From Antedon bifida (Eukaryota > Echinodermata > Crinoidea > Comatulida > Antedonidae), in NCBI GenBank assembly GCA_963402885.1, contig OY727098.1:16168717-16232716 (forward strand): DNA of 64,000 bases, given 5' to 3'. The stretch's first letter is position 1, and each line of letters starts with the position of its first letter. Shown in pieces: positions 386 through 64,000 of the stretch. A model generated the notes under the pieces. It saw only the letters and a program-made list of their open reading frames with translations, was not told the DNA's origin and searched no databases. Both the position numbers and the translations under genes were made by a program.

Positions 386-3300
386 GGAAAAGATGGTATA
401 AATGGATCGGCTGGTGAAATGGGTGAAAAGGGTCCAAAGGTAAATTTATATTGTTGTCTGTAGGCCAGAAATGTATTTTCACAGATTTTTAAACGAAAAG
501 AAAGATTAAAATACATGTTATTGATATGGATTTTTTTAATGAATTTATGGTATTCTATATCATATTATGTCTTTTTAAGATTATATGTTTTAATAATTAA
601 GTTTTATTTACCATAGGGAGACAAAGGAGAAGATGGAAAATCAGGTCCTATGGTAAGCATAACACTACAATATAATATAACTCTTAGCAGGCAATATCTG
701 TATAAAAATAATAATAATGGTTGACTTTTATATAGCCTAATACAAACGTTTCTGAACACTTTACATCATACTTATATAGCTCTTTATACAAGTGTATAAG
801 TTCAGTTGACTAAATATACAATAACTTTCATCACCTTTAATAATAAGATTTTAAAAAAAATAGTTTTTAGCTTACTTTAAAATGAATCAAAAGAGGTTGA
901 AAGTTTGCACAATATGTTGGAGTTCTTTCCAAAAAGAGGATGCAACAAGGAGAAGGTGCGTCCACCATAAACAAATAGCAATGATTTGACAAGAAGATGG
1001 AACACGTCGAGGCACAAGTTGGGTGATATTAGATGCATGGGAAAAGAATAAAACAACAATAATAAATAATAAATGGTTTTGTTTTTACAACCATGTTTAT
1101 AAGTGATGATTAACATTTACATCATTTACATTAATAGGGACCTCCTGGTTCACTTGAGCTTCAGTTAAAGGGTGAACCTGGTGAGCCTGGCCTACCTGGA
1201 CTAAAGGGAGACCCAGGTATTGGAAAGATGGGCCCATCTGGAAAACCAGGTGTACCAGGATTACAAGTAAGTATTATTTAACTTCATCTGTATTATCATT
1301 AAATCATGTAATGCTTTTCTAGGTTGAATGTGTTTACATTACAGAGTAGCTTTTGCTGTTCTTTCCTACTTCTGTATCTTTAAATGATATTTATATTCAA
1401 TGATCCAGCACTCGGAAACAATTATAACTAAAATAGAAGAATTGGAAATAAATGCTAATATGTACGGTAATAATAAATTATTAGTTTTACCTTAGCTGGT
1501 ATTTTGATATCATGTACTAAACATTTATATGTTGATGTGTGCCCATATGATGTTGTGGTTTGTGGATTAGTCCATTATGCAAGGAACTTTTTGTATTATA
1601 CAAGTGAGAGCTAGGAGAGCACAGGTTATTGTCGGTTTATCCAGGTAAATATGCTGTATCTTTTAATTTAAATAATAATTTAAATAAATAAATATAATAT
1701 CCTTAATAACTATTACAATTCTATTTTACAGGGATCAGATGGAGCACCAGGAAAGCCAGTAAGTGTAGAATATTTACCTTTTACACTTTTTAAATATCAT
1801 TGCATGTAATACTAGTGATATGCTAGGAAGAGAAGAAGCATTAGCAAAAGACAGTAATATAAATATCTTGGATTGTCCATAGAAAGCACCTCAATCTCAA
1901 CACATTTCTCTCCCCCCACCCCCCATGCATTTCAATATTTAGAAGAAAAATAGACCTAAAAAATCACAGTTTATTTATTATTGTATAAATATATAAATAA
2001 TAAATGTATAAATTTAACCAGGGTCCGGGTATACTCGATCTCAGTGGCATGTGTGAAGTAAGGATTTAATTAGCACCATGTCAACAGAACTAATTGTTCT
2101 TTATTTGGATTGTTAATTGATAACTTATTAAATACATCAATTATCAATTTGTAATATTAATGAATCATATTAACTTTAATTAACATCCTTCCTTATTGTA
2201 TAGCACTTTTGAGGAGGTCACCACACAGGGCTCTCTCCTTTTTTCAAAGATTAGATTTAATATGTTGAAAGTGGTCATTATCACCCTTTAGTTCAATTAT
2301 ATTGTTTGTTAGATCCAGATGTATTACTGTCTTATTTTAATGCTACTTATGATATGCACATGATGATTGAAAGTGAATGATAATATCTGCATTATCTTGT
2401 TGAAATGCTACAATTTCTGCTTGTTGTCAATTCATTGGCATTATATATTTTGCACATTATACACATGCTTTATATGCTTGTAGCAAAAGCCAAATCTTTA
2501 TAATTATACTTGGAGTATTGGGTCTCATTGGCATATGAAGGTTTTCTGATGCTTATGAGATATTTTATGATGATATAATATTCTATCAAAATGATTGGTC
2601 AAATTACTTACGGTGCACTTACATTGCGTAGGAACCAAGCTTTAACTCCAGTTATATTGATTTGTAATTTGCTCCAAGAGTCACTATACAAAATAGTACT
2701 GCTATTTTACAGTACTTTAGTCATAGTATATTTGAAGTCACGTTTGAAAATGTTCACCATAGCATGATGCAAAGTTTGCTTAGAAACTGCATTTCTATAT
2801 TGCTGCATGTGTGTTATGTTTTTTATTGCACCATTCTCTACAGGGTGTTATAGGGCAACCAGGCCTTAATGGTAGTGCTGGTGTTTCCGGTCCAAAAGGA
2901 GAGCCTGGCTCTGTTGGTTTTCAGGGTTATCCAGGCCAACAGGGTCAAAAAGGAGATGTTGGTCTACCAGGTGTTAAAGGACCATCAGGAGGAGAAGGGC
3001 CACCAGGAGAGCAAGGGCCAAAAGGAGAGCAAGGGCCACAAGGAGAGAAAGGGCTGCAAGGAGATCAAGGATATGTTGGCAAACCAGGTCCATCTGGAGG
3101 TTTACCTGGTCCGATGGGTCCATCTGGAGAACAAGGATTACCTGGTGAGCAAGGATTACCTGGAATCAGTGGTCCACCTGGTGATAGAGGGCTGCCTGGT
3201 ATGGGAGAAGCAGGTCCAGCTGGAGAACCTGGATTGTCTGGTGAACCTGGCCTACCAGGAATGATTGGTACACCTGGAGAACAGGGCTTACCTGGACCAC

Positions 3301-6300
3301 AAGGACCAGCTGGTGACATAGGACCACAAGGACCAGCTGGTGAAATAGGTCAAACTGGACCCCAAGGTGATGCTGGACAACCAGGTTTGAAAGGAGAACC
3401 GGGAATAAAGGGTGAAGTGGGCCAAACAGGGGAGGTGGGAGTTCCTGGTGAAAATGGAGAAAAGGTAGGGATTGGGCCAAGAGCTTGGGCCAAGAGCTTG
3501 TTAGATTGATTTAAATATACCTTTCATCACCTGCACATGCATGGTTTTACAGCACTTAATTTAAAGCTGATAAATTTATTTTTAAAAAGTTGTAATTTGC
3601 TTTTCTTGAAGCATGCTTTCCATGTTATTTTTTTTTCAAAAATAATTATTCATATCTTTGTAAATTCTGAATGTTATGGAGTTATGTAGAAAATTACAAT
3701 AATAATTAACTTACAGATTGCACTAAATTAAAAGAACATATTAATACATACAATTTATGAATACTAAACAACTTTTAATTTTCTACACAACTGCGTATAT
3801 ATTTATATTATTGGAGGATGAATTATTAATTTTAGTTTTATTTTATAATTCTTGTATTATGGAAAATGCATCACTTACATATGTGCGTGTCCAGAAATAC
3901 TTCATGTATTGATTTTCTGCATACACTCTTTTGATAGTTATTCCAATTTTAAAATGATTATCTATTTGCAGACATATATAAAAAACAAATGAAACAAAGA
4001 TCTATTTCTTAAAATATTTAACTATTGAAGCCTTTGATTCACTCAATGTAATTTGTATTCATATTTTTTTTTGCAATTTGTTTATTTAATGTCATTTTAT
4101 TTTTGTTAATCTACAGGGTGAACCAGGACCACCAGGAGATCAGGTATTTATTTCATTCATACTTTGTTTTGTATGTATTTAAAGGATCCATTATGTAATA
4201 ATTATATTCAAAGGCACCATGCCAACAAACTTCCAATTAATAAAGCCAAATCTCAATATTTGTATTTGTATATAATAAAATGTATTTAAAAAACAAAAAA
4301 ATACTAACAAACCACATTTCACTTTTTGCACAATATTAATATTGTAGACTATCATCTCAATTAACTATAGCTTATCACCTAATTCTCTGTACAGTATCTC
4401 CAAATATGGCGTACATTTTCCAGTATCATATGTAGGTAATACAGTGTTACATCACATGTGGCGCCTGTATTATGTTAAGGTCAGGTTTATGGCCTTTGGC
4501 ATCACATTTGATACATGTGTGACACTGTATTGCAGAATTTGCATGATTCTGTACAAATTATAGACAGTACTAAAAATCAGCTAAATATATAGATGTAGTT
4601 TCTAACCTTCATTTTCTAATCATTCCATTTATTTTTCCTTTTTCACATTTCTGTTAATCTCAGCAAATCACAGAATTAATTAGTTTACGCCAGGTAAGTT
4701 TACATAACTAAGTTTTACCCAAACAATTACTAATACTAGATCAAAGCACTTAAAATGTAATTTTTGTATTTGTTATTTTATTGGCACCAATGTTGTTTGG
4801 ATCTTTTTTTCTTGTCGGGAGGACAATAAAACAATATCAAATGTAATGCCTAACTAATGTTAATCATAAAATAAAAATGCTATCTAGAAATAAAATATGT
4901 GGCACATGCAAGGGAAATCGGACATAAGTCGCAAGTGGGTTGATTTTAATGAAAATTTTGCATAATAATAGAACAATAGTTAATAAGATAGGTGCAAAGT
5001 TTCATTGAAATAAAACAATTAGAATACCCTTTTGCTAAGGCGTAAACTTAGACGCCCTGTTTATTTGTTTGTATTTGTCATTTCCTGTTACTTTTTTTAA
5101 TTTAAAAGCATTTTTCTCAAAACACTGATTGTAACAGCCAAAACTTTAGACTGAGATATCTCTGGAAGTAGACATGGTATAAAGATATTTTTTTCAGCAT
5201 TTTAAATTTTGGATTTTGTTATAGTTTTAGTATTTGTGAAAATCTCAATTTTGAAAATTCCGACTTACAGTATGTCTGCTTTCCTTTGCATGTGCCACAT
5301 ATATACTAATATAGTAGAACCTCTATTAAGGGGACATTTTCAGGAACCCAACAAATGGTCCCCTTGATAGAGGTGTCTCCTGGGGGTTGGCAGTAGTTTA
5401 AAACATAATATACTAATACAATATAACCTCTAATAAGAGGGACATTTTCAGGAACCCAACAAATGATTGCCTTGATAGAGGTGTCTCCTGGGGGTTGGCA
5501 GTAGTTTAAAACATAATATACTAATACAATATAACCTCTAATAAGAGGGACATTTTCAGGAGGTGGGTCTCCTGGGCCTGGCAGTAGTGCCCATCATTTG
5601 TTTCTCAGGAAAGTGTCCTAAATTACAGGTTCTACTGAAATTCTGAATTGATTTACACTGCACACTAATGAACACATACTACACCTGTACTTCTAACGTT
5701 ATCCTTTAATGTAAATATATAAACATTGATGTTAATAGTAAATTGTATTTTGTTGTTGAAGGGTTTACCAGGACCGCCAGGAATACAGGGACAACCTGGA
5801 TTAAAGGTAAGTACAATTGGATTAACAAGTGACAAATCTATGCAAAAAGTAGGATTTATAGGATAAAAATTAAAAAGCTATCTATTGCCATAAAATATAA
5901 TTTTATAATTTTGTCAAATATAGAAACAATAAAGAACTTAATGTATTATACTATTTGTATTAGATGAATATAAATGCTGAAATGAAGATGTTAAATAGAC
6001 AAAATTGACCAATCGGCACTGGAGCTTTTATATGATAGTCTGTTCTGTATTTAAAATTGTTTGACATAATAAATGCATGGCAAATTGATAACACAATTTT
6101 ATGCTTACATACAGTACCAACAAGCAGTTAAAACACCTTTTTTAAAAACTATTAAATAATATTAATAGTATTTATAATGCTGTGTTGGGTGTTAGAAATT
6201 AGCCTAAAATATTATATTAGCGACTATATTGTGTTTTAACTAAAGCTTGGTATGTAATTAGGCCTACTGTGCACTGCTGACTTTCTGCACAGCACAGCAT

Positions 6301-20777: not shown

Positions 20778-23700
20778 TCATAACTGTTCTGTTGCTGATT
20801 GTGTCTTGTTGACAATTTCAGTTGGCTGTGTGGCATTATCTGATGAAGTATGTTGACAATCAATAATCTTTGGTGTAACTTGTGGCTGAAGAGAGCAAGA
20901 CTCTTGGTTGTTGGGTGGAATACATTCATTTGGTTGTCTTTCTATCAAAGACTGATTGGTGGATGATGCTGATGCTGGTTCATCTTTTCTTTTATCAGAA
21001 TCTTGCACAACATAAGCACAAGTTGAGGAGCTGACAGCAGTAGGCATTGTTTCCGATTCAGGTTTTTGCTGCACCTTCTGCATGCCATCGTTGTCATGGT
21101 GAATGTACGGACAAAGTCCTAGTGGCTGTGGAGCAATCTGTGCTGGCGACACAATGTGGTTGTGTTTCTTCATTGGATTTTCAGCAGCTTTCATTTGCTC
21201 CATGAATGAAATGTTCATACCCTGGTTTTGGTAGTTGCCACCAAACTGCCCAAAATGCGCCATGTTGCCATTGTTGGCGACATTGCCAAACGGAGGGACC
21301 ATCATAGGCTGGGGCTGCATAATATTTAATGCTGGATGCTGCTGGTTGCCACCATCCCCAAATGAATGTGCAAGACCATTATTGTTTTGGGGCATAATAT
21401 AAGCTGGCATCACATTACCTGGCATCATTGAACTAAAAGCAGTTGCGTTCTGCGGCCCCATCATTTGTTCATTTGACATCGCCATTGGCATCATCATGTA
21501 TTGAACCTGCTGATTGTTGGAATAATTTACTTTACGCTGTACCTTGCGTCGGCGTCTTGGAAGTGGAGCTTGTGGATTGTAATTGTCATTGATAGACCAG
21601 AAACACCCCTTTCGATGGCTTTCGTTTTTATTTTCATCAGCTCTTCTGGATTTGAAAGCTGGATGAGTTAATGCATGTCTAACAGAGCTCTGTAGTAGAT
21701 CAAAATATTGTACATAAGCTTTTATTGTGTAATTTATTTTATTTGAACCATATTTAATGAGGGTGATCCTTCAAGCAATTGCTGATCATTTGGGACCCTC
21801 AGAACAGATACAATACACAAAATACAACAGTTAAAGTTACAGTACAAATCCTATAAATAAAATAAATTACATGAGAATTAATTAAGTAATTAGGTAGTTA
21901 TTTTTGTTACTATTTAATATTAAACATTCCACAAATAATTAATAGTGAATCTGGAATTGTTCCTGTTCAAAAGCTTGGTGGCTCATCACCTAAAGTTTGC
22001 CAGCAAACTTATGTTGGCCTCCTTACAAACATACAAGCATCCTTATGTGAAATTCATTACACTTTGCAAACAAACAAAGTTGTTATAAATTATTGTTTAA
22101 TCTCTGTTGCTTATTCTACAATCTTTCAAATATAAGAAAAGCATGTTTCTCACCATCCAACTTTTCTTCTTCTGACCATGATATGTTGTATATAATGGAT
22201 AGAGTTTTCTGTTTGATAAAAAAGAAATCTAGTAACATAGTAACTATTGTATTAAAGACAAATTATACATGTATTTTAAAAGAAATTAATCAATGATTAC
22301 TGATAAGTGATATGGAATTATTGGTGTAAAACATAATTTTAAAATTTTTACCTCAAGGTATTTCATTAAAACATTAGAATCAAAAAGAAGCTATTTTAAT
22401 GATATCTTTCTCAGACATGAACATTGCAGTAAAAAAATTATTGTAAAAAACATTTACGTTAATTCTTGGTAGACTTCACATGGTTGCATTTCTGTCTTTT
22501 TGCATATTTTAAAAACATGTAAAACTTGCTGTACAAGACCCTGTGATGGCCGACCATCCATTCTGTACAAAGGTGACACGCTTTGTTCTTCTCCACTTGA
22601 TATGGGATCATTATTTTGAATTACCAAGTCTAATTGAAAAAAAGAAACGAAATATTAAATTAAAGCACAATTTTGGGATAAATATTTTTATTATAAAAGT
22701 TAGAAAAAGTATTCATGAATAGGTAAATTATCAAGAATTAAGAATTCAAGAAAAATATGAATGCAAGACCAACCTGTTTTCAATGGTGAAATGGTTGTCA
22801 TTAATGGTGCCTTCATCATGTACTGATTGTAATTATGTTCACTCTTGACTGGTGATGAATAAATTACTGTATCCCCACTACCACCAGCAATGATACTTGT
22901 CTGCGGATGAACAGTACTATTCATAGGAGGATGACTTAATGTCTGATTTTCAACTGCGCCTGGTCGCAATGTAGAGATTGGTGGCAATTGACCATAATTT
23001 TGCATTGTCGACCCGCTGTTAAAATGAACTTGGTTTTGTGGCATATGTATTACATTATTAATATTAGGGTATGTTGCTCGGTTAGACAGAGCATGGCTAG
23101 AGTATGGGACTGACTGTGTTACACTCATCTGTTGTCGGTTACCTCTTCTTGGAGAAGAAAAGTGATGAAGAGGCATGGTAGGATTGTATTGGTTATGCAC
23201 TGGTAATTGAGATGTTTGATCAGGACCAGTCTGTCCTTGATGAAAGTTCATCATCATTGTATTTTGTTCTTGATGAAATCTTGTTGGGTGACCAAGACTG
23301 TCATGTTTTATTAATGTTATTGTTGGCATTGCTGTTTGAACTGCTGGTGCTTCTTGTTTAATTTGTTGAAAATGATTCTCTATTTGATGAGGTTGAGATC
23401 TTCTTGCATCATCAATCAAATGCCCACTATCTTCAATTTCATTTTCCTGCTTTGGTGTCAAAATTACTCTTGTCTCTGATGTTGCTCGCATAAGGATATC
23501 CTCCTCCACTTGTTCAGCTGGAATAAACACACAATGTTCGCCATTTTCCGACATTGCAATGTATCCTTCTTGTTGAACAAGGTCATTTTCTTTGGCATCA
23601 TTTATTTTTTCATTTAGGCCTACTACTTTACCTTGGTTATCGCATATCGGATTTACACCTGACTCTGTGTCCCAACACTTGTCTTCAATGAGTAAAGATG

Positions 23701-23899
23701 AACTCTCATTGTTGATAGAATTCTCTGTGAGAGTGGGCGAATATTGGCCCGCTTCCTTCGTGGAAGGCTTCTCTTCCGTCGGCGGTAGGGCTAAATCAGG
23801 TTCAGGCTCACCCGAATTTTCACCATACACTTTTGAATCTACTGCAACGCTCTGTTCTTCATTTATTGAAGAACATGCCGTGGTACTACTAGTCTCCAT
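20778..23899 (-). CDS. Putative forkhead-like (winged-helix) transcription factor, four coding exons
   Basis: Seen: exons on the minus strand at 23899-22774, 22629-22458, 22208-22154 and 21689-20778 (TGA), joining in frame to 754 residues. ATG at 23899 is the first Met; the open frame upstream starts only with TTG. The N-terminal 375 residues are acidic then Q/N/H/M-rich. Residues about 403-486 look like a forkhead fold: a first helix around GLVQQVLHVFK, then EVYQEL, then KKKSWMSSVRHALTHPAF, then HRKGCFWSIND. This parallels W.NS.RHNLS and GKGCFW in forkhead domains. A basic run (PRRRRKVQRK, about 495-504) follows and could be a nuclear signal. The rest is Met/Asn/Gln-rich and may be an activation domain. 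Inferred: a divergent Fox-type DNA-binding protein; I cannot place the subfamily. Confidence 0.85.
22154..22208 (-). CDS. Hidden 55-nt exon completing the forkhead-like domain
   Basis: On the minus strand a pyrimidine-rich tract ends in aaacag, followed by 55 nt and a gtgaga donor. It enters in phase 2 and leaves in phase 0, exactly what is needed between exon 22629-22458 (leaving two bases of a codon) and exon 21689 (starting AGC TCT). It encodes the segment from KLYPLYTTYHG to KKKSWM. This supplies the helix 2-helix 3 part of a forkhead domain, including the Trp that precedes the SVRH recognition helix. Confidence 0.85.
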
Positions 23900-24130
23900 T
23901 GTTTCAATCAATTAGGCTTAATTTATAGGTTTATTTCGTCGACATTTTCTCGCGGTTTTCTAAACAGATCGAAAGTTGATGTGTATGCCCGCTGTCTGCG
24001 TACAGTGCGTGTCGTCACGCAGAATTGACCAACAGCGCGGTGTGTGATGTGAACCGTAGTTCGATTTGAATTATCTGTTAATCTGATTGGTTGAAAGTAA
24101 AAAAACCGAATTGCACATGCGTATTAAGTA
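23900..24130 (-). promoter_or_regulatory. Probable promoter and 5' UTR of the forkhead-like gene
   Basis: Upstream of the ATG at 23899 the base composition becomes richer in GC and CpG than the surrounding DNA (about 23930-24050). An inverted CCAAT box (gattggttg) sits near 24090 and a CRE-like gtcgtcacg near 24012. The transcription start is not visible. A small run of near-repeats (gttgcgttgag, gttgcgctaag) follows at 24180-24212. Confidence 0.35.
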
Positions 24131-27287: not shown

Positions 27288-30200
27288 ATGAGTGACAAAA
27301 TAATGCAACCCAAAAATGGAGTTTATATTATTCAAGGCGAAATGTTATTGGTTGTCACAGCAATGCGTAGGACCTCAAGATGGAACACCCATATTCCACA
27401 GGTAAATAATACAAATTATATAATTGGATATGAAAATACTGTATCTAGACAGTGTACATCCATTTTTCCTGGAATTTGCAATGTAAAATGTGTATATTAT
27501 AAAAGTACATTCATTATATAATATACTGTAGTTAAATTGTATATTATATAATGAATTTACTTTTATAGTATACTGTAGTTAGATTGAAAAGTACTGCTTT
27601 ACCACGTTGAAGCACCGGTTCTCGTCAGATCACCAATGTTAAGCAACGTTGGGCCTGGCTGAGGCTTGGATTGGAGACCATCTGGGAATATCAGGTGCTG
27701 TATATGGAGCTGGGGTCCCATTAGGCATTTGAAATCAGCACTGCTGACTCTTATGGTAGCCCTTGCATCTAGTATCTGCCTCAGACGTATTGGCCATTGC
27801 CTTTCCTCTGGTGAAGGCGGGCACTAGACGAGAGAAGCCCTTGATCAATATTAGGACCAATCAAGGTGCTTTAAACAGTCCTGGCTTAGTCATCATTCAG
27901 ATAAATGTAAGACTAAAAATGATGCTGTTGTTCGCGACAGACGTCGTATGCATAGTCTATTGACTAACTGACGCACATTTTTTTTTTATAGGAGGAAGAA
28001 CAAGATCCATTGATAGCTGGCTTCTCACAACTAAAAGATCTGCTCAACTCTATTTCAGGTATGCTTATGCTTATTTGTATTCATTTATTTATCAACAATT
28101 TGGCAAATTGTCCTATGTGTAAACCATGGGTTAATATCTTTATTTGAGGAGAAAAGTGTTTGCCAGGTTTATCTAGGTAACTATTGAGTTGAATTAATTA
28201 TTGAATTAAATTCTATGAATTTATCAATTGAAGTAAATATATATAAATTGAAAATGCAATGAATTTCTTCAGTGCAAAGCGAAGAATAGGAAATATATTG
28301 ATTGTATTGTTCATCAGTTTGATAATTGTGATATTGTAGTTGTATTTCTTTCATACAGCCTCATGGATTGTTGTGAACGAGCCTCCATTTTAAAATTTAA
28401 AGATTTTGTTATTATATTGATTTTTGATTGATGTTTTAATAAAGTATAGGAATTAGAATGAATTAAAATTATCCTCATAAAATTTGAATGACCAAATAAG
28501 GTTTGCTACTGTAGGCCTACTGGTATACAATAAACAATGAAATGAATGATTCTAAAGCTATGTTTACTTCATCAAATATAGTTAGTGATATAATCGTGTC
28601 CATATATGGGCACATCACATGTTTTTATCACATATAGTTCGATAGTGTAGACATATCTTAAGTATATTTTGTGGTTAAATAGAAACTGACTGATGCCTTA
28701 AAAAACAACGATGTGAAATATTGATATTATTATCACAGTTGCTAGGTCAAACATTTTGTCAATCTGTTTATATTTGTCATGGTTCAGTGGATAATGCAAT
28801 TAAGGATACTAATTATCGATATCATTTGCTTCAAGTGTTTTCTCATTTAAATCTAGTGGCTGTCATTTAACAATTTATCTCAATTTATCCTCTCATACCA
28901 AATGTTACAATTTACATAGAAATCAGTGCATTTTCCTGAGGGTATTGTTACTTTGGACTTATGTACTATAGTTATACAGTACTGTACATACTCAAGAATG
29001 CATTTTAAACAAAAATGTAGAATAGATATAGGATTCGTTTAAATTGGATGATGGGTTTGGTTGAATGTTTTTATGGAATCTTCTTATGGGCTGTTTAATT
29101 AAGAAAAATAATAATAATAATAATAATAATACAGTTTATTAACCTGGAACCAAGTCTTCTAGATTGAAAATAATGATTAGTGTAGAAAAATTAACATTTC
29201 ATCATATTACATCCATTATTGTGTTACAAACAGTAAATATATGATATCCAATCAGTCGGTTAAGTAATAGAAATCTTTATTCAAGATCAAGACTGGACTA
29301 AAACCCAGTAAGACGGACTAAATGACTTGCTAAGATTGAAGTATTTAAACTAACTCTAGAATACAATTTTTTTTAAAGACAGTAGATAAAATTTAGAATG
29401 TTTTGTTAATGACATTGTCACTAATGACTGCAGAGCACTGACTGCAGAGCACTGAGCTAGAGCAATTAGGTTCATTTAAATGTAATGACCTTTGCTATTT
29501 CCACCAGCTTTGGTTGCAGACTTGCTATACGTACACACTGTTCATTCAGCATGAAACCGATGTAAATAAATTAAAAGCAAACAGTATGGATCTGTTTGAA
29601 TTACTAGCTAGTGTACTATAAAATTATTTGGTTAAAAATAGTAATATAGAAAATATTGTTTTAAACGTTTTACATTTGTTTATAATTCATTATTTTTTAA
29701 ATTTGACACTATGTATTTGTATATTATTATTTGTACTATTATACACCTTTTAAATGTCACCTAGCATACAGTGTAGTTTAATTTTCTTTTGATAAATCAG
29801 GCAATTAAAATCTTATTTATAAATATTAATAATCTGTGTGTTTAACTTGATTGATACAACAGCAGAGCAAGATAGATCTAATTTAACTTTATTTATCTAA
29901 TTAAATATTATATTAAATTCTATCAGTTATGTCCAGAAGATGCCACAAGAGAGATAATAAAATATTTTATAAAGTAGTATAGTTAAGATTTGTGAGAATA
30001 TTGAATAGTTGAAAAAACTCCCTCTTTATTTAACATAACATAATATTATTGATTCAAGAAATTGTATAGAATCACTCAATGAACATATATAAAAAGGAAA
30101 ATGATTACAAGGTTATTCAATTTCATCATCTACAGGAGATAAATTGTATAAGAATACGATATTGGGTGAAATTATTTTTTGTATTGATTTCTAACATTTA

Positions 30201-42200: not shown

Positions 42201-45200
42201 ATTCTCGAAACACATACATTTTTGGTGGTATTATACATGAAATATTAACATGAAGAATATATTATCTTTTATAATATGTTATCTTTTGTACATACAGGTT
42301 ATTGCATCTTTGCGTATGTTGTTTATGATGCGACCAAGTGTACTTCACAAACAATGTCGTCAGATCTCGCACGCACTCTATGAACTGTTGCGTACAAATG
42401 CTGCCAATATTCACACCCCTATGGATTGGTATACATTGTTTACTCTACTAGAATGTGTTGGTGCAGGAGCCATACCACCTCCTATGAAACAGGTGGCTAT
42501 CGGAACAGAGTCTGATGATTGTGCAAGTGTTTGCGGTGATCATGGTAGGTGGTACATTAATTTTTTTTTGAAAGGTGGGCTTGAATTAGCCTTATCATCA
42601 TCATGAATTATGTGGATCATTTTGCATACTGTACCCCCACTAGCATGGTATATAAAATAATGTGGTATTCTTATATTTTGACCTTTAATGTTTATTAGGT
42701 ATTCATTAGTACCGTAGTTCCTTGGGTATAATCCCACCTCGGGTATAATCCCACCCCCGACTTTACGATTACCTTCGCACGCAAGCATATCCCCGGGCAA
42801 AGTCCCAGTGTATAATTTAACATTAGGCCAGAGGTGGGCCTAGGCCTACTGTAGCTAGCTAGGCCGACGTCAATTTCTCACCAAAAAAAATTGAGTAATT
42901 TCTCTGAATTTGGCTGACTTAAAACTCATCAAACATTGTAACATTGTTAAGTTGAATACAATCTTAAGGCTAGCATGCCCCGATCGTCACGTTCTGTACA
43001 TCCTTTCGCCGTCGTGTACATTCTTTCTTGTTGTTTACACTACTGTGCATGCTTGATTACCGTAAAAAAAACACCGCCCTCTATACCGACCGGCTTGTGC
43101 AGTAGAGTTTGTGTCACATGCAACAACATGCGATTTACACAGAGAGCTCGAGCGTGTGGGTGAACATGGAGAACTCGTATGATCGAGTTCATGTCGATTT
43201 AGGAAGCTAGGCCTAGATCACATTTTAGGGTATTTTTTAAGTAGAAATCTCGGGGAAAATCTATACGGTAGGCATAGCACAGGTAAGACCAATTAGGCCG
43301 CCTAGGCCTAGATAGCCTGGCCTTCTAATTGCTAGGCCTACATCGGAATATAGCTTTTAGATAGCCTAAATCGTAGCTAGAAGAAATATCGTCATTTTCA
43401 GTTCATGCAGCGGGAAATCCCCGGGTATAGTCCCACCTCCCAAATTCGGGTAAATTTCACGTACAAGGGGGGGGTGGGATTATACCCGGGGAACTACGGT
43501 AATATTTTCCTCTTCTCATATTTTTTATCTTAAGGATATTATACAATGTTATCAAAATAAATTAAACAATTTAAAAGAAAAAACTATAAAGAAAATATAA
43601 AATATATTTGAGGTTTGTAGTTAATGTTTATTTCATTGATCTTATAGATGCACAATCTGATAGTGAGTTGTCTGTCAGTAGCCAGATAACAACAGTATCT
43701 GATCATGGCTATACTTCTGACTCAGAACTGTACAACATGCACAAGCCGAAGCGTAGTAGTAGCGAAGGGGATGTACGTGACATTGGACGAGGGGGCTGGC
43801 TGGTAGTAAGGGATTTTGTTTTTTGCCCCTAAAATCACAATTTCATATTCTTCATTATTTTTACACTCTGTTTCAGCATCGAATACCAAAATATTAATAT
43901 AAAAATAATGAATTATTTGTTGTAATAAATAACATTGTAATCTTTTATAAAGGTAAAGAAAGATGAAGAAGAAAATAAACAGCCACACAATCAATATGAA
44001 ATATCTCTTGATATCGAGCTTCGACACCATGATACAAAATCACTCATGAAATGCTGCGAAGTCCTAGCTTTCCTCGTACGTGACGCTGCTCACGTTACGC
44101 CTGACAATTTTGAATCGTGCGTGCACTGCATCAGGACTTTTGTGGAAGCAACTGTGAATGGAGGAAGATTAAGCGATCATCAACGGAGACAGAGGGCAGC
44201 AAACAGGGAGGCTAAAGACAGAAGAGGAAAGAAGGGTAAGAAGAAAATGCCAAAGACTTACTCGGTACCAGATAAGATTGCACAAGTTGGCGACCATGAG
44301 GATGAAGAGGATGCTGCGTTGGGTGGATATCATTCACTCTCTATACAGGTACAGTCAATTGTACAGTTATTCATAATAGTTGTTAATGTATTCACATTTA
44401 TATTCCGTCAACTACTGAAGTGAAAAACATCTCTGAATCCAGATGTCCAAAATATCCTAGTTATTATTAAAAATACATTCGAAACACCAGTGTTTCTGGA
44501 AACCCAGACAAATTGGGCTAGCCAACACTGGGCATCTACAACAGTGTTTTGTTTGGAGTGAATTAATAAAACAACCCCAGAGTTCAAAACATCTAGAGAT
44601 GCCAATCAGTTGTCATGGCTAAGAGTGTTCTTGACACATCATACCATTTTGCAACATGATTTAGCACTTATTTATACTTTCTTTTATTCGGTAGTTGTTG
44701 GATCTGATGCATACATTACACACAAAAGCAGCGACAATATTCAGTTCATGGGCAGAAGAACAAAATAAATTGGGAGAAGTTCATACCATAGATGCTGGTG
44801 CTAGTGCATTATGGATAAAATGCTGGTGTCCCTTGTTGCAAGGTAAGTAATGTTGGTGGAAAATGTGTACCTATTTTATCATTTTATGTAACGATTTGTT
44901 GCATATAGGGCATTAGTTGTAATGACAAAATATTTGTAATATTTAGGTATAGCTCGACTTTGTTGTGATACAAGACGTCAAGTACGAATGCAAGCCTTCT
45001 CATACTTGCAGAGAGCACTTCTTGTGCATGACCTCCAGACTCTCTCTGCAACTGAGTGGGAATCAAGCTTCAACATCGTTCTCTTTCCACTGCTCACAAA
45101 ACTGCTCACCAACATCAACAGTCACGACCCAGACGGGGTTGAGGAGACACGAATGAGGGCGGCCACACTACTTTGTAAAGTGTTCCTCCAACATCTATCG

Positions 45201-47122
45201 CCGCTTTTGTCTTTGGCAACGTTCACAGCTCTCTGGTTGACCATTTTGGATTTCATGGACAAGTATATGCATGCAGATAAGAGTGATCTACTGGTAAGTA
45301 TTACTATATTTAACCTGGTTATGCTACAGGGCCTGGCAATTGCACTTAGCAAGAAATTTAGTGGGAGGATATCAATTTTCTATACTTCATTTTAGTTATT
45401 GTCAGGTATGAACAGTATTTTTCACTATTGAAGGTCAAAACACACGCCTAGATTATATACGCAGTGACAAAATGAAGGAAAATAACCTTCTCCAGCCTTG
45501 ATATGTGAACTATAACCATGTCACAAAATGCATGTATCCAACTCACATTCCAAGCTGGTTTTTCACTGAACCATTTTATTAACAGATTTTTTTAGAGCAT
45601 TAAATTGCTTTTACTGATCTGCTGTACGTTACTGTACCAATGCTGTACCAATACCTTTTTAGGAAATTCCAAGCTGGTTTCATTTTTAGTCGCATGCAAA
45701 CGTGACTCTATAGCTCACTATGTCGGTGGGTTGGCTGGTCGGTCGGTGAGGTCACTCAGTAAACACTAACTCAAATTTGCGCACGCGACTGCAGCCATGT
45801 ATATGGTCTTGTTTCTTAATATCCAAGTTATTCATCAATCTTGCAATCATTTCTTATGACAGTTTGAAGCTATTCCTGAATCTCTGAAAAACATGTTGCT
45901 TGTGATGCATACAGCCGGAATCCTAAGCAGTGAAGATCAAGGAGATGATTCTCCACTATGGCACGTCACATGGGAGAGAATTGACTGCTTCTTACCTCAA
46001 TTAAAACATGATCTATTCAGGCCTAGGGAGCCATGTAAGTGAATGAAATCATTTCCAATAATACTAATAATCCAAGTAAGACAATAGTAAATTATTTTTA
46101 TTATTTATTTGGTATCAAACAAAATCACAACAACCCCAGAGGGCAAACCTGTGATTGACTAAAACAGTTTAAAACAAAGACAATGATGAAAGAAATAACA
46201 AACTTAAGTGAAAAATAAGTTCTAATTGGTTGGAGTTGATTATTACATTACTTTCTTTTTTTTATTGTTTTATTGTTGTCAAATGTTTTAATTTTTTTAA
46301 AATAATAATAAACCAAAATTAATTTGTTTTGTTTAGCTAAACCAAAAGTTGAAACTGTTGTTGATCCTGGCGATGCCCCTAAACAAGATAGTAGCATTCC
46401 TCGGGATGGAGCACCAACGGTCAAAGAGCCAGAAAAACAACAAGAAAATGGAGGTAAGTGTATTGTATATCCATCATAACTTGATATGATTTTAATGCTT
46501 CTTTTAATATTAAATCAGTTTTTTGCATGTAAAAAAATGCATACTTAAAATCTATACATAAATGATAACATTATATTTTAAAACATACACAAATAATCAT
46601 ACCTAATTATAATATAATATTCTTTCATATCCATCATACGTTTTTAATGCTTCTTTTAAAATTAAATCAGATTTTTACATGAAAAACAATGCATAATTAA
46701 AATCTGTATATAAATGATAACATTATATTTTAAAACATACAAAAATAATCATAAATAATTGCCATATAATATTCTTTCAATAAAATGATTTTTAATATAA
46801 CTAAAGACATCTAAATAATTTCCAACACACTTTCTTTTTACTTACTAATGCAATTTACTATTATAAATGGTTATAAATTTGACTTTAAAAGTGAAACAAC
46901 ATTCTTTTTTTTTATGTAGATGTAGAAAATGCAGTCGTTCGTTCTGCAAGTCCTGCTCAGATCATACTTCAACCACCATTACCATCAGCTGTTCCTATTC
47001 CTCATGACAAGTCTGGTGCTTCTGTACCTATTCTATTAAATCCTAATATACTACAAACAGGAGGCATTCAAGGCCTGCCTATACTAGGTGTTCCTGTGGG
47101 CGATACTGCCAATAGCTCATGA
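27288..47122 (+). CDS. GBF1: GBF1, Golgi brefeldin A-resistant Arf guanine-nucleotide exchange factor, complete, 33 coding exons
   Basis: Exons: 27288-27401, 27992-28058, 30996-31127, 31402-31520, 31990-32098, 32213-32316, 32469-32873, 33321-33486, 33797-33881, 34386-34521, 35100-35291, 35838-35939, 36119-36314, 36773-36907, 37182-37303, 37642-37844, 38008-38131, 38567-38692, 39404-39486, 39638-39874, 40327-40426, 40682-40926, 41049-41172, 41419-41606, 41822-41975, 42298-42544, 43648-43805, 43953-44348, 44695-44842, 44947-45293, 45863-46034, 46337-46453, 46920-47122 (TGA). All phases agree: 1851 residues, close to vertebrate GBF1 (about 1860). Seen: N-terminal DCB region (GVYIIQGEM), HUS box YLNYDCD (about 555-561), Sec7 domain (about 729-918) with catalytic Glu821 in FRLPGEAPV, then HDS regions and a Pro-rich tail. 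Known: it loads GTP on Arf1 at the cis-Golgi to recruit COPI. A basic/Ser-rich linker in exon 7 is the least conserved part. Confidence 0.98.
27591..27702 (+). repeat. 5S rRNA-like sequence (SINE3-type element or pseudogene) in GBF1 intron 1
   Basis: The segment carries the order of 5S rRNA motifs: taccacgttgaagcaccggt, then tctcgtcagatcacc, gttaagcaacgttggg, the cttggattggagacc segment and tctgggaatatcaggtgctg. Several changes from a functional 5S gene are present (for example GGATTGG for GGATGGG), and no terminator T-run follows at once. The flanking 27703-27960 is unusually GC-rich and may be the body of a 5S-derived SINE. It is not a functional rRNA gene on this evidence. Confidence 0.7.
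28553..28660. mobile_element. Palindromic MITE, copy 4, degraded (GBF1 intron 2)
   Basis: The element core (gtccatatatgggcacatca) and right TIR (gatagtgtagacatat) are clear; the left TIR is diverged (aaagctatgtttacttcatc). Confidence 0.65.
30423..30480 (+). repeat. Possible tRNA-derived SINE fragment
   Basis: The sequence agtggtctagtggttgggtg resembles a tRNA A box, and gtgtgattctta about 20 bp on is a weak B box. The rest of the element is not recognisable. It lies in GBF1 intron 2. Confidence 0.3.
34183..34343. mobile_element. Palindromic MITE, copy 5, close to a GBF1 splice acceptor
   Basis: Core gcccatatatggacatgatg, two ccatatttg arms and right TIR tagtgtagaaagagctt. It ends about 40 bp upstream of the acceptor of the exon at 34386, so it probably lies near or over the branch-point region. 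Confidence 0.7.
34636..34790 (+). repeat. Dispersed repeat, copy 2 (GBF1 intron 10)
   Basis: Counterpart of 15261-15420, with gatgcacctgtgacgtca, gatatccttaatatcgcgat and tatggtcctcggtcaagttg. Here it continues into sequence related to the 5310-5640 element. Confidence 0.7.
37642..39874 (+). CDS. GBF1: GBF1 Sec7 catalytic domain exons
   Basis: Five exons (37642-37844, 38008-38131, 38567-38692, 39404-39486, 39638-39874) carry the Sec7 fold. It starts near [13 protein letters not shown] and ends near [11 protein letters not shown]. The glutamic-finger codon is GAA at 38081-38083 in [10 protein letters not shown]. The second active-site motif reads [11 protein letters not shown], with Val862 where most Sec7 domains have Thr (MLNTDQHN). 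Everything needed for exchange activity otherwise appears intact. Confidence 0.96.
38235..38480. repeat. Degenerate minisatellite in GBF1 intron 17
   Basis: About a dozen irregular units built on ccaattaaagatc / tccaattaaacact, spaced mostly 17-22 bp, fill this part of the intron. Composition is pyrimidine plus AATTAAA on the plus strand. Confidence 0.7.
38870..39270. mobile_element. Non-autonomous DNA transposon (MITE) of about 400 bp with long TIRs, GBF1 intron 18
   Basis: The left end (gcgcacactagagct, then cggctgagccaactg, then gagtaacacttggctcac) is repeated inverted at the right (gtgagccaagtgttactcgt, cagttggctcagccg, agctctagtgtgcg). This gives TIRs of about 55 bp. A second inner copy of gcgcacactgtgag is near 39111. 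There is no coding capacity. Target duplication is unclear; superfamily not assigned. Confidence 0.75.
40017..40150. mobile_element. Possible hAT-type transposon end
   Basis: Begins caggggttctcaacaaattt, very like the CAGnGGTTCTCAAC ends of hAT elements. The opposite end was not found, so the right boundary is arbitrary. Confidence 0.35.
41265..41388. mobile_element. Palindromic MITE, copy 6, 3'-deleted, next to a GBF1 splice acceptor
   Basis: Left TIR aagccttgtctacactatca and the gacatgatgatgtcatatca core are present. The right half is cut short, joining tttttgggca directly to gagcttta. It ends 30 bp before the exon at 41419. Confidence 0.7.
42711..43500. mobile_element. TIR transposon of about 790 bp in GBF1 intron 26
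   Basis: The left end accgtagttccttgggtata and the right end ccggggaactacggt are inverted repeats extending through a tataatcccacc motif. TA at both edges fits a mariner-like TA target. The left end carries a second tandem copy of gggtataatcccacc. The interior is GC-richer than the intron, with several aggcctag-type palindromes. No transposase frame is seen; the plus-strand open frame at 42975-43163 resembles no family. Confidence 0.75.
46470..46790 (+). repeat. Tandem duplication of about 160 bp in GBF1 intron 32
   Basis: Two copies, offset by about 161 bp, share tatccatcata, ttaatgcttcttttaa and aatgataacattatatttta. They differ by scattered substitutions, so the duplication is not very recent. 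Confidence 0.8.
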
Positions 47123-49037: not shown

Positions 49038-50090
49038 CGGATTGGTAATGTCAAATCCACCTCTATCGACCTGAAATGCGGTGTTCTGTGGGTCCAGTAT
49101 TGTTTTTAGTTTACATCTCGCCCTTGAGTGATATCATTAGGAGACATTGTGTCCAATATCATGTGTACGCAGATGACACGCAACTGTACATCAGCTTCAA
49201 TCCAGCAGAGTTTAATGAGGCGAAGTCGGTTATCAAAGCTTGTGTTGTTGATGTTCAGGATTGGCTAACTAAAAACATGCTCTGTTTTAACGCTGGTAAA
49301 ACAGACGTCTATTTCTTCATTCAAAACACTCAACAAGAATTTTCCCATTGCTAGAAACATCAGCATTGGCAACACCCCAATCACACCATCGTTGGAGGTT
49401 AGAAATATCGGAGTTGTATTTGACTCAACAATGACTATGTCCAGACATATCAACAACATTAGTAAATATGTTACCTACCACCTTCGTAACAAGATCAATT
49501 CGCAAATCCTTAACCCACTCCTACTTTATTAAACTTGTCCATGCACTCATAACATCACGGTTAGACTACTGCAATGCTATTTTGTTTGGTCTATCAAATA
49601 AAGAACTTAATAAACTACAACTTCTTTTAAATACTGCAGCTCGACTTGTATCCGGCACTTCAAGATTTGCTCATATTACACCAATATTATATAAACGTCA
49701 CTGGCTTCCAATTAAACAACGAATTATTTTTAAACTAATGTTAATTACATATAAATCTCTTCACGACAAATCACCATCATATATTTCCAATTTAATTATA
49801 CGTAGATCTTCAGTTTGCAAAAGATATCTTAGGTCGAACACTAATCATCCATCTGCACTTTTTGTTCCACCCAGCCGCCTTAAGACTTATGGTGATTAAG
49901 CTTTTGCAGTTGCAGTTCCTAAACTGTGGAACAATCTTCCTGATCCTATTAAAAATGCATCCTCTATCATAGTTTTCAAAACACTCTTAAAAACCCATCT
50001 TTTTTCTTTGTAATTTCTTTCTGTTTTTTCTCTCAGCGCTTTAGGACAATCTTTTGATTGTATAAGCGCTATATAAATCGAACAACATCA
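48802..50090 (+). pseudogene. Dead CR1/L2-type LINE: reverse-transcriptase and 3' end fragment
   Basis: Seen: translated pieces of a non-LTR reverse transcriptase. [14 protein letters not shown] and [12 protein letters not shown] come first; then, in another frame, GPVLFLVYISPLSD and the catalytic-site motif YADDTQLY. The C-terminal part (49468-49899) has LITSRLDYCNAILFG, KLQLLLNTAARLV and HWLPIKQRI, then more after an internal stop. The 3' end is cgctatataaatcg followed by caacatcaacaac. Frameshifts and stops show that it is inactive, and the endonuclease and 5' end are missing. Known: this C-terminal pattern is typical of CR1/L2-group elements. Confidence 0.9.
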
Positions 50091-63371: not shown

Positions 63372-63631
63372 CTAAATAAATACAAAATCAAGAATAGAAT
63401 AAATATGTTAGCCTCATCTATTTTCACTTCACTTTAAATATTATTGGATCAGTAGAACCTTCTAACGTCTTGCAAATTTTAACCTAATAAGTGTTACAGT
63501 ATGTTGAGATCTATTATATTGCTGGAATCTGAATATGAACTCGAAGTATTGAGAAGTGTTTTATTCAAGCACACTCTTTGAGAGCAAATCAACAACTCTA
63601 TATTAGTTCCTTGTCACTGTCTCCTTTTAGA

Positions 63632-64000
63632 AAGATATGTGATTTGTTGCTAAAGATATTTGATTTGCTGCTAAAGATATTTGATTTGCTGCTAAAGATA
63701 TGTGATTTGCTGCAAAAGATATGTGATTTGCTGCAAAAGATATGTGATTTGCTGCAAAAGATATGTGATTTGCTGCTAAAGATATGTGATTTGCTGCTAA
63801 AGATATGTGACTTGCTGCTAAAGATATGTGATTTGCTGCAAAAGATATGTGATTTGCTGCAAAAGATATGTGATAATTGCTGCAAGAGATATGTGATAAT
63901 TGCTGCTAAAGATATGTGATAATTGCTGCTAAAGATATGTGATAATTGCTGCTAAAGATATGTGATAATTGCTGCTAAAGATATGCGATTTGCTGCAAAA
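63632..64000. repeat. 21-bp minisatellite, running off the window end
   Basis: About sixteen units of aaagatatgtgatttgctgc plus one base follow each other. The last units expand to 22-23 bp through a tgataattgctgct variant. The open frames on both strands (KICDLLL and SHIFCSK repeats) are by-products of the 21-bp period and not proteins. The stretch lies in an intron of gelsolin-like gene B. Confidence 0.9.

Follow-up and report, generated by a model that had tools for sequence, protein, structure and literature searches.

Among forkhead proteins of solved structure, the chain in the PDB closest to the protein described here is human FOXN1 (PDB 5ocn, 6el8; E 4.1e-5), a member of the FoxN1/4 type. 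As described in PMC7062188, FOXN1 reads DNA by Asn317, Arg320 and His321; in the same account, Gly314 (PDGW) appears to be required for binding to GACGC, and the yeast protein Fhl1 carries a serine at the position of FOXN1 Asn317. PMC8918179 and PMC9539403 present FoxT as a relative of FoxN1/4. Concerning exon structure, a table of PMC11353378 gives the boundary GGCTGGAAG/AACTCTATT (a slash marks a splice junction) for FoxO of the sea urchin Paracentrotus. A literature search found no exon maps of FOXN1 or FOXN4, and the FOXO junction peptide was not found in any paper.

Here we analyzed a window of 64,000 nucleotides from the crinoid Antedon bifida, which is AT-rich (32.3% G+C) and contains, on the minus strand, a gene split into four coding exons (Table 1). 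These exons encode 754 codons and a stop, and the introns that separate them are all of the GT-AG type. The frame of exon 1 is open from position 23911, with its first ATG at 23899. Exon 2 encodes the N-terminal part of a forkhead domain, with helix 1 and the start of helix 2, a 55-nt micro-exon extends from the end of helix 2 to where helix 3 begins, and exon 4 encodes helix 3 (SSVRHALT), the wings (RKGCFWSIN) and a long C-terminal part. Taking the definition given in a figure legend of PMC8918179, this forkhead domain contains two introns. Downstream of the domain, exon 4 also encodes a basic stretch, RRRRKVQRK (aa 496-504), which may have a role in nuclear import. The gene is a strongly diverged member of an already known kind of gene, and we consider it quite probable that it encodes a fast-evolving forkhead (winged-helix) transcription factor derived from FoxN1/4, in which the micro-exon is constitutive.

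Table 1. Exons and introns of the forkhead gene, in window positions
Feature	Positions	Strand	Description
Coding exon 1	22774..23899	minus	1126 nt, aa 1-376, start codon at 23899, phase 1 end, donor ACAG/GTTGGT
Intron 1	22630..22773	minus	144 nt, GT...AG, phase 1
Coding exon 2	22458..22629	minus	172 nt, aa 376-433, phase 2 end
Intron 2	22209..22457	minus	249 nt, GTAAAT...AAACAG, phase 2
Micro-exon	22154..22208	minus	55 nt, aa 433-451; the split Thr codon is followed by KLYPLYTTYHGQKKKSWM
Intron 3	21690..22153	minus	464 nt, GTGAGA...CTACAG, phase 0
Coding exon 4	20778..21689	minus	912 nt, aa 452-754 and stop

Several other features were observed in the window. On the plus strand, positions 2784-3506 hold a collagen triple-helix frame (114.4 bits), 49049-49351 a piece of reverse transcriptase (RVT_1, 33.6 bits) that is a transposon remnant or copy, and 44940-45392 an exon-like frame with a GBF1-like repeat domain (Pfam TPR_28, 85.7 bits) that is likely part of a larger gene; the frames adjoining the latter look like the same gene and gave no Pfam match. 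The single 5S rRNA match of the window (27589-27706, plus strand, 60.7 bits across the whole model) adjoins a 47-base tandem repeat, and a 21-base tandem repeat of about 17 copies occupies 63631-64000 and extends past the window end. The palindrome TAGGCCTA occurs 15 times in the window, against 0.54 occurrences expected from dinucleotides.

A preliminary description of this DNA had proposed a 55-nt exon at 22208-22154, and the micro-exon is confirmed as real because a corresponding very short exon lies at the same place in the FoxN1/4 gene of this genome; Pfam scores and a shuffle control also bear the proposal out. In genomic DNA, the micro-exon is preceded by TTTTTTATCAAACAG and followed by GTGAGAAAC. 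The agreement of all phases, also proposed earlier, was found as well, since exon 2 ends in phase 2 (22458) and phase 0 applies both to the end of the micro-exon and to the start of exon 4 (21689). With the micro-exon, the Pfam Forkhead model (PF00250) scores 34.1 bits on the 754-aa protein and 38.3 bits on a 129-aa piece covering the domain; without it, the same piece scores 17.8 bits, so that its inclusion carries the domain across the curated cut-off of 27 bits and completes it as expected. The Forkhead match spans aa 411-490 of the whole protein, in agreement with residues 403-486, the range singled out earlier for a profile or structure search. The residues supplied by the micro-exon, from the C-terminal portion of helix 2 to where helix 3 begins (profile positions ~33-47), form the segment that had been said to be missing in its absence. 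Two other Pfam models matched the domain piece below their cut-offs and were rejected, namely APC_u5 (17.0 bits, cut-off 27) and SNAPC1 (15.0 bits, cut-off 23.8), and an NCBIfam search gave no match.

The 768-nt gap between exons 2 and 4 was then scored for every in-frame, stop-free cassette of 20-250 nt flanked by AG and GT, using a home-made profile of 12 forkhead domains taken from the PDB search output. The micro-exon came top of the 17 candidates with 35.2 bits, against 22.5 bits for the next best, and only one of 1000 dinucleotide-shuffled gaps reached at least 35.2 bits. With the same profile, exon 4 alone scored 17.7 bits and plain skipping to 21687 scored 14.0 bits, while the best of the 77 in-frame joins made without a cassette, through other donors or acceptors, reached 19.1 bits.

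Skipping of the micro-exon had been predicted to need a second AG, and indeed, of the two acceptors named, only 21687 keeps the frame, which is then open to the same stop. Micro-exons of such a kind could be regulated, and this open frame would suit an optional cassette, where the main product skips the micro-exon via 21687 and has no working forkhead domain, the inclusion form being minor or regulated. We nevertheless hold this explanation to be very improbable: skipping brings the domain below the Pfam cut-off, both splice sites of the micro-exon fit the consensus well, and the equivalent exon of FoxN1/4 is obligatory for its domain. Without the end of helix 2 and the turn that leads to helix 3, the product of in-frame skipping would not be expected to adopt a forkhead fold.

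The genome searched comprises 315.6 Mb in 27 contigs, and its Fox set, together with the collagen frame and the GBF1-like gene, marks it as that of an animal. A six-frame Pfam search of it produced 36 forkhead matches, from which the window gene is absent. Nine intron-split forkhead loci (L009-L017) were fetched for an intron survey; of the 36 matches, six single-exon places fell outside this retrieval, among them L028, an orphan gene obtained separately and considered below. Within L009-L015, the family labels K, M, O and P come from tree neighbours, and J1, J2/3 and H are assumed. A phase-0 intron just before the helix 3 motif Asn-Ser/Ala-x-Arg-His was found in seven of the nine loci (L009-L012, L014, L015 and L016), and intron 3 of the window gene lies at this common site, which reads SWM/SSVRH in its product. 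Sea urchin FoxO shares the phase-0 site, its tabulated boundary being read as GWK/NSI (PMC11353378). The two remaining loci, L013 (C12) and L017 (C14), are related Fox genes (support 95/96 and 98/95 in two trees) and share a phase-2 intron that sits elsewhere, downstream of an FPYY-like motif.

Among the seven phase-0 loci, only L016 has a second intron inside the domain; no phase-2 upstream intron was found in the six others (L009-L012, L014, L015). L016 is the FoxN1/4 gene of this genome and joins human FOXN1 with a support of 99/99 in a first tree and 100/98 in a second one. Of 520 three-exon models scored for it, the top one (118.8 bits) includes a 43-nt micro-exon (C12:2302104-2302146) that is preceded by a phase-2 intron and followed by a phase-0 intron. 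The sequences around the first junction, EIYAFM-C-ENFPYF in L016 and EVYQEL-T-KLYPLY in the window protein, align without a gap and the same codon is split (Cys and Thr, respectively), so that the two genes agree in the codon and the phase of both introns, intron 2 of the window gene corresponding to the first forkhead intron of FoxN1/4. The window micro-exon is four codons longer than its counterpart. The gene therefore displays the FoxN1/4-type pattern, that is, a forkhead micro-exon flanked by a phase-2 and a phase-0 intron, a pattern documented for this genome alone. Judged from the sequences, this pattern is the strongest support for the exon, and it is independent of any forkhead score. 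After helix 3 the two genes differ, since the last coding exon of the window gene has no further intron, whereas the corresponding exon of L016 ends, by its open frame, soon after the domain.

Similarity to FoxN1/4 in the protein itself is just ~28 bits. When 34 comparison domains were ranked, FOXN1 scored 27.7 bits, L028 27.5, L016 24.0 and FOXK1 23.4. The wing motif RKGC, which the window protein has in common with FOXN1 and L016, occurs in two of 33 comparison domains, both of them FoxN1/4. A tblastn search of the FoxN1/4 region with the protein matched the part from helix 3 to the wing (26.9 bits), with no likeness outside the forkhead domain. Searched against the genome, the full protein gave 100% matches solely to its own locus, and one other match, to L028 (E 0.0022, 29% identity), which makes the gene single-copy at that sensitivity. 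No relatives turned up when viral contigs were scanned, this collection being a poor place for animal genes.

Two sequence trees, the first without L006 and with L007 as a fragment, the second without L020, placed the window protein in no family, and its end branch measured 6.97 changes per column in the first and 5.82 in the second. In a topology test on the second tree, neither a FoxN1/4 grouping (p-AU 0.335) nor a FoxK grouping (p-AU 0.12) was rejected. The trees neither show nor reject a FoxN1/4 origin. In being divergent, of clade II and hard to classify, the protein resembles FoxT and other fast-evolving Fox orphans as they are described in PMC8918179 and PMC9539403.

The second tree pairs the window protein with L028 at 87/92, a pairing that is not starred. 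L028 (G000:C1:23244345-23247638) is an intronless, diverged orphan Fox gene that reads GRPQDSYAQMIAKAIKTS...WKNSVRHNLT, with its forkhead frame near 1510-1902. The exon and the domain could then be real and belong to an orphan of another Fox line, such as kin of L028, which would have acquired or retained the phase-2 intron independently. This pairing, the 27.5 bits of L028 and its status as the sole other locus that the full protein matched in the genome would all fit such an orphan. However, the pairing unites the two fastest rows of the tree, and L028, whose forkhead domain is uninterrupted by introns, cannot account for the two intron positions that agree with FoxN1/4 in both codon and phase; we regard this origin as unlikely. 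The shared intron pair is taken as a better guide than the trees and favours an origin from FoxN1/4, which we consider likely.

The residues equivalent to FOXN1 Asn317, Arg320 and His321 are Ser452, Arg455 and His456 in the window protein. Asparagine occupies the first helix 3 contact position in 32 of the 33 comparison domains. Another diverged single-exon forkhead domain was observed at L020 (G000:C13:4548500-4549400), whose helix 3, WKTSVRYALN, has Thr for Asn and Arg-Tyr for Arg-His. Unlike FOXN1, the window domain also has Ser for Gly314 (Ser449, which precedes Trp450), four extra residues before helix 3, and no PPYSY-like start of helix 1. It lacks the proline-aspartate-glycine motif before helix 3 and in this differs from the GACGC-binding type as described in PMC7062188. 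Altered DNA specificity is plausible because the contact asparagine is a serine, as reported for yeast Fhl1 in PMC7062188.

The lost helix 3 asparagine, the lost PPYSY start and the insertion before helix 3, together with the very long branch, could also be expected of a decaying relic, either a gene that is still transcribed but has a forkhead part without DNA binding, or a pseudogene in the making. Yet its 754 codons are free of stops, splice sites and phases are correct throughout, and Trp450, Arg455, His456, Leu458 and the wing motif RKGCFW are kept, and we find decay improbable. Most likely, the gene encodes a forkhead transcription factor, is present in a single copy, evolves very fast and derives from FoxN1/4. 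A FoxN1/4-type gene would have been the ancestor, its micro-exon being retained (now 55 against 43 nt) and very fast evolution following. The protein would bind DNA through helix 3 with the retained Arg455 and His456; with Ser452 instead of asparagine, its preferred site is probably not plain RYAAAYA and is possibly a new one. The long flanking regions may carry regulatory contacts. More tentatively, the gene could represent a new fast-evolving Fox subfamily that split from FoxN1/4 in the lineage of this animal, with the near-invariant helix 3 asparagine replaced by serine as in yeast Fhl1, a different DNA site, and the intron pair as the only clear trace of ancestry.

Where trees fail, the positions and phases of introns can thus reveal an overlooked exon as well as the probable origin of a transcription factor. 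The six-frame Pfam search of this genome omitted the window gene, and Fox genes of this sort can be missed by genome surveys that look for entire domains one exon at a time. If the change from asparagine to serine does alter binding, this protein would offer a natural test of how helix 3 controls the DNA specificity of forkhead proteins.
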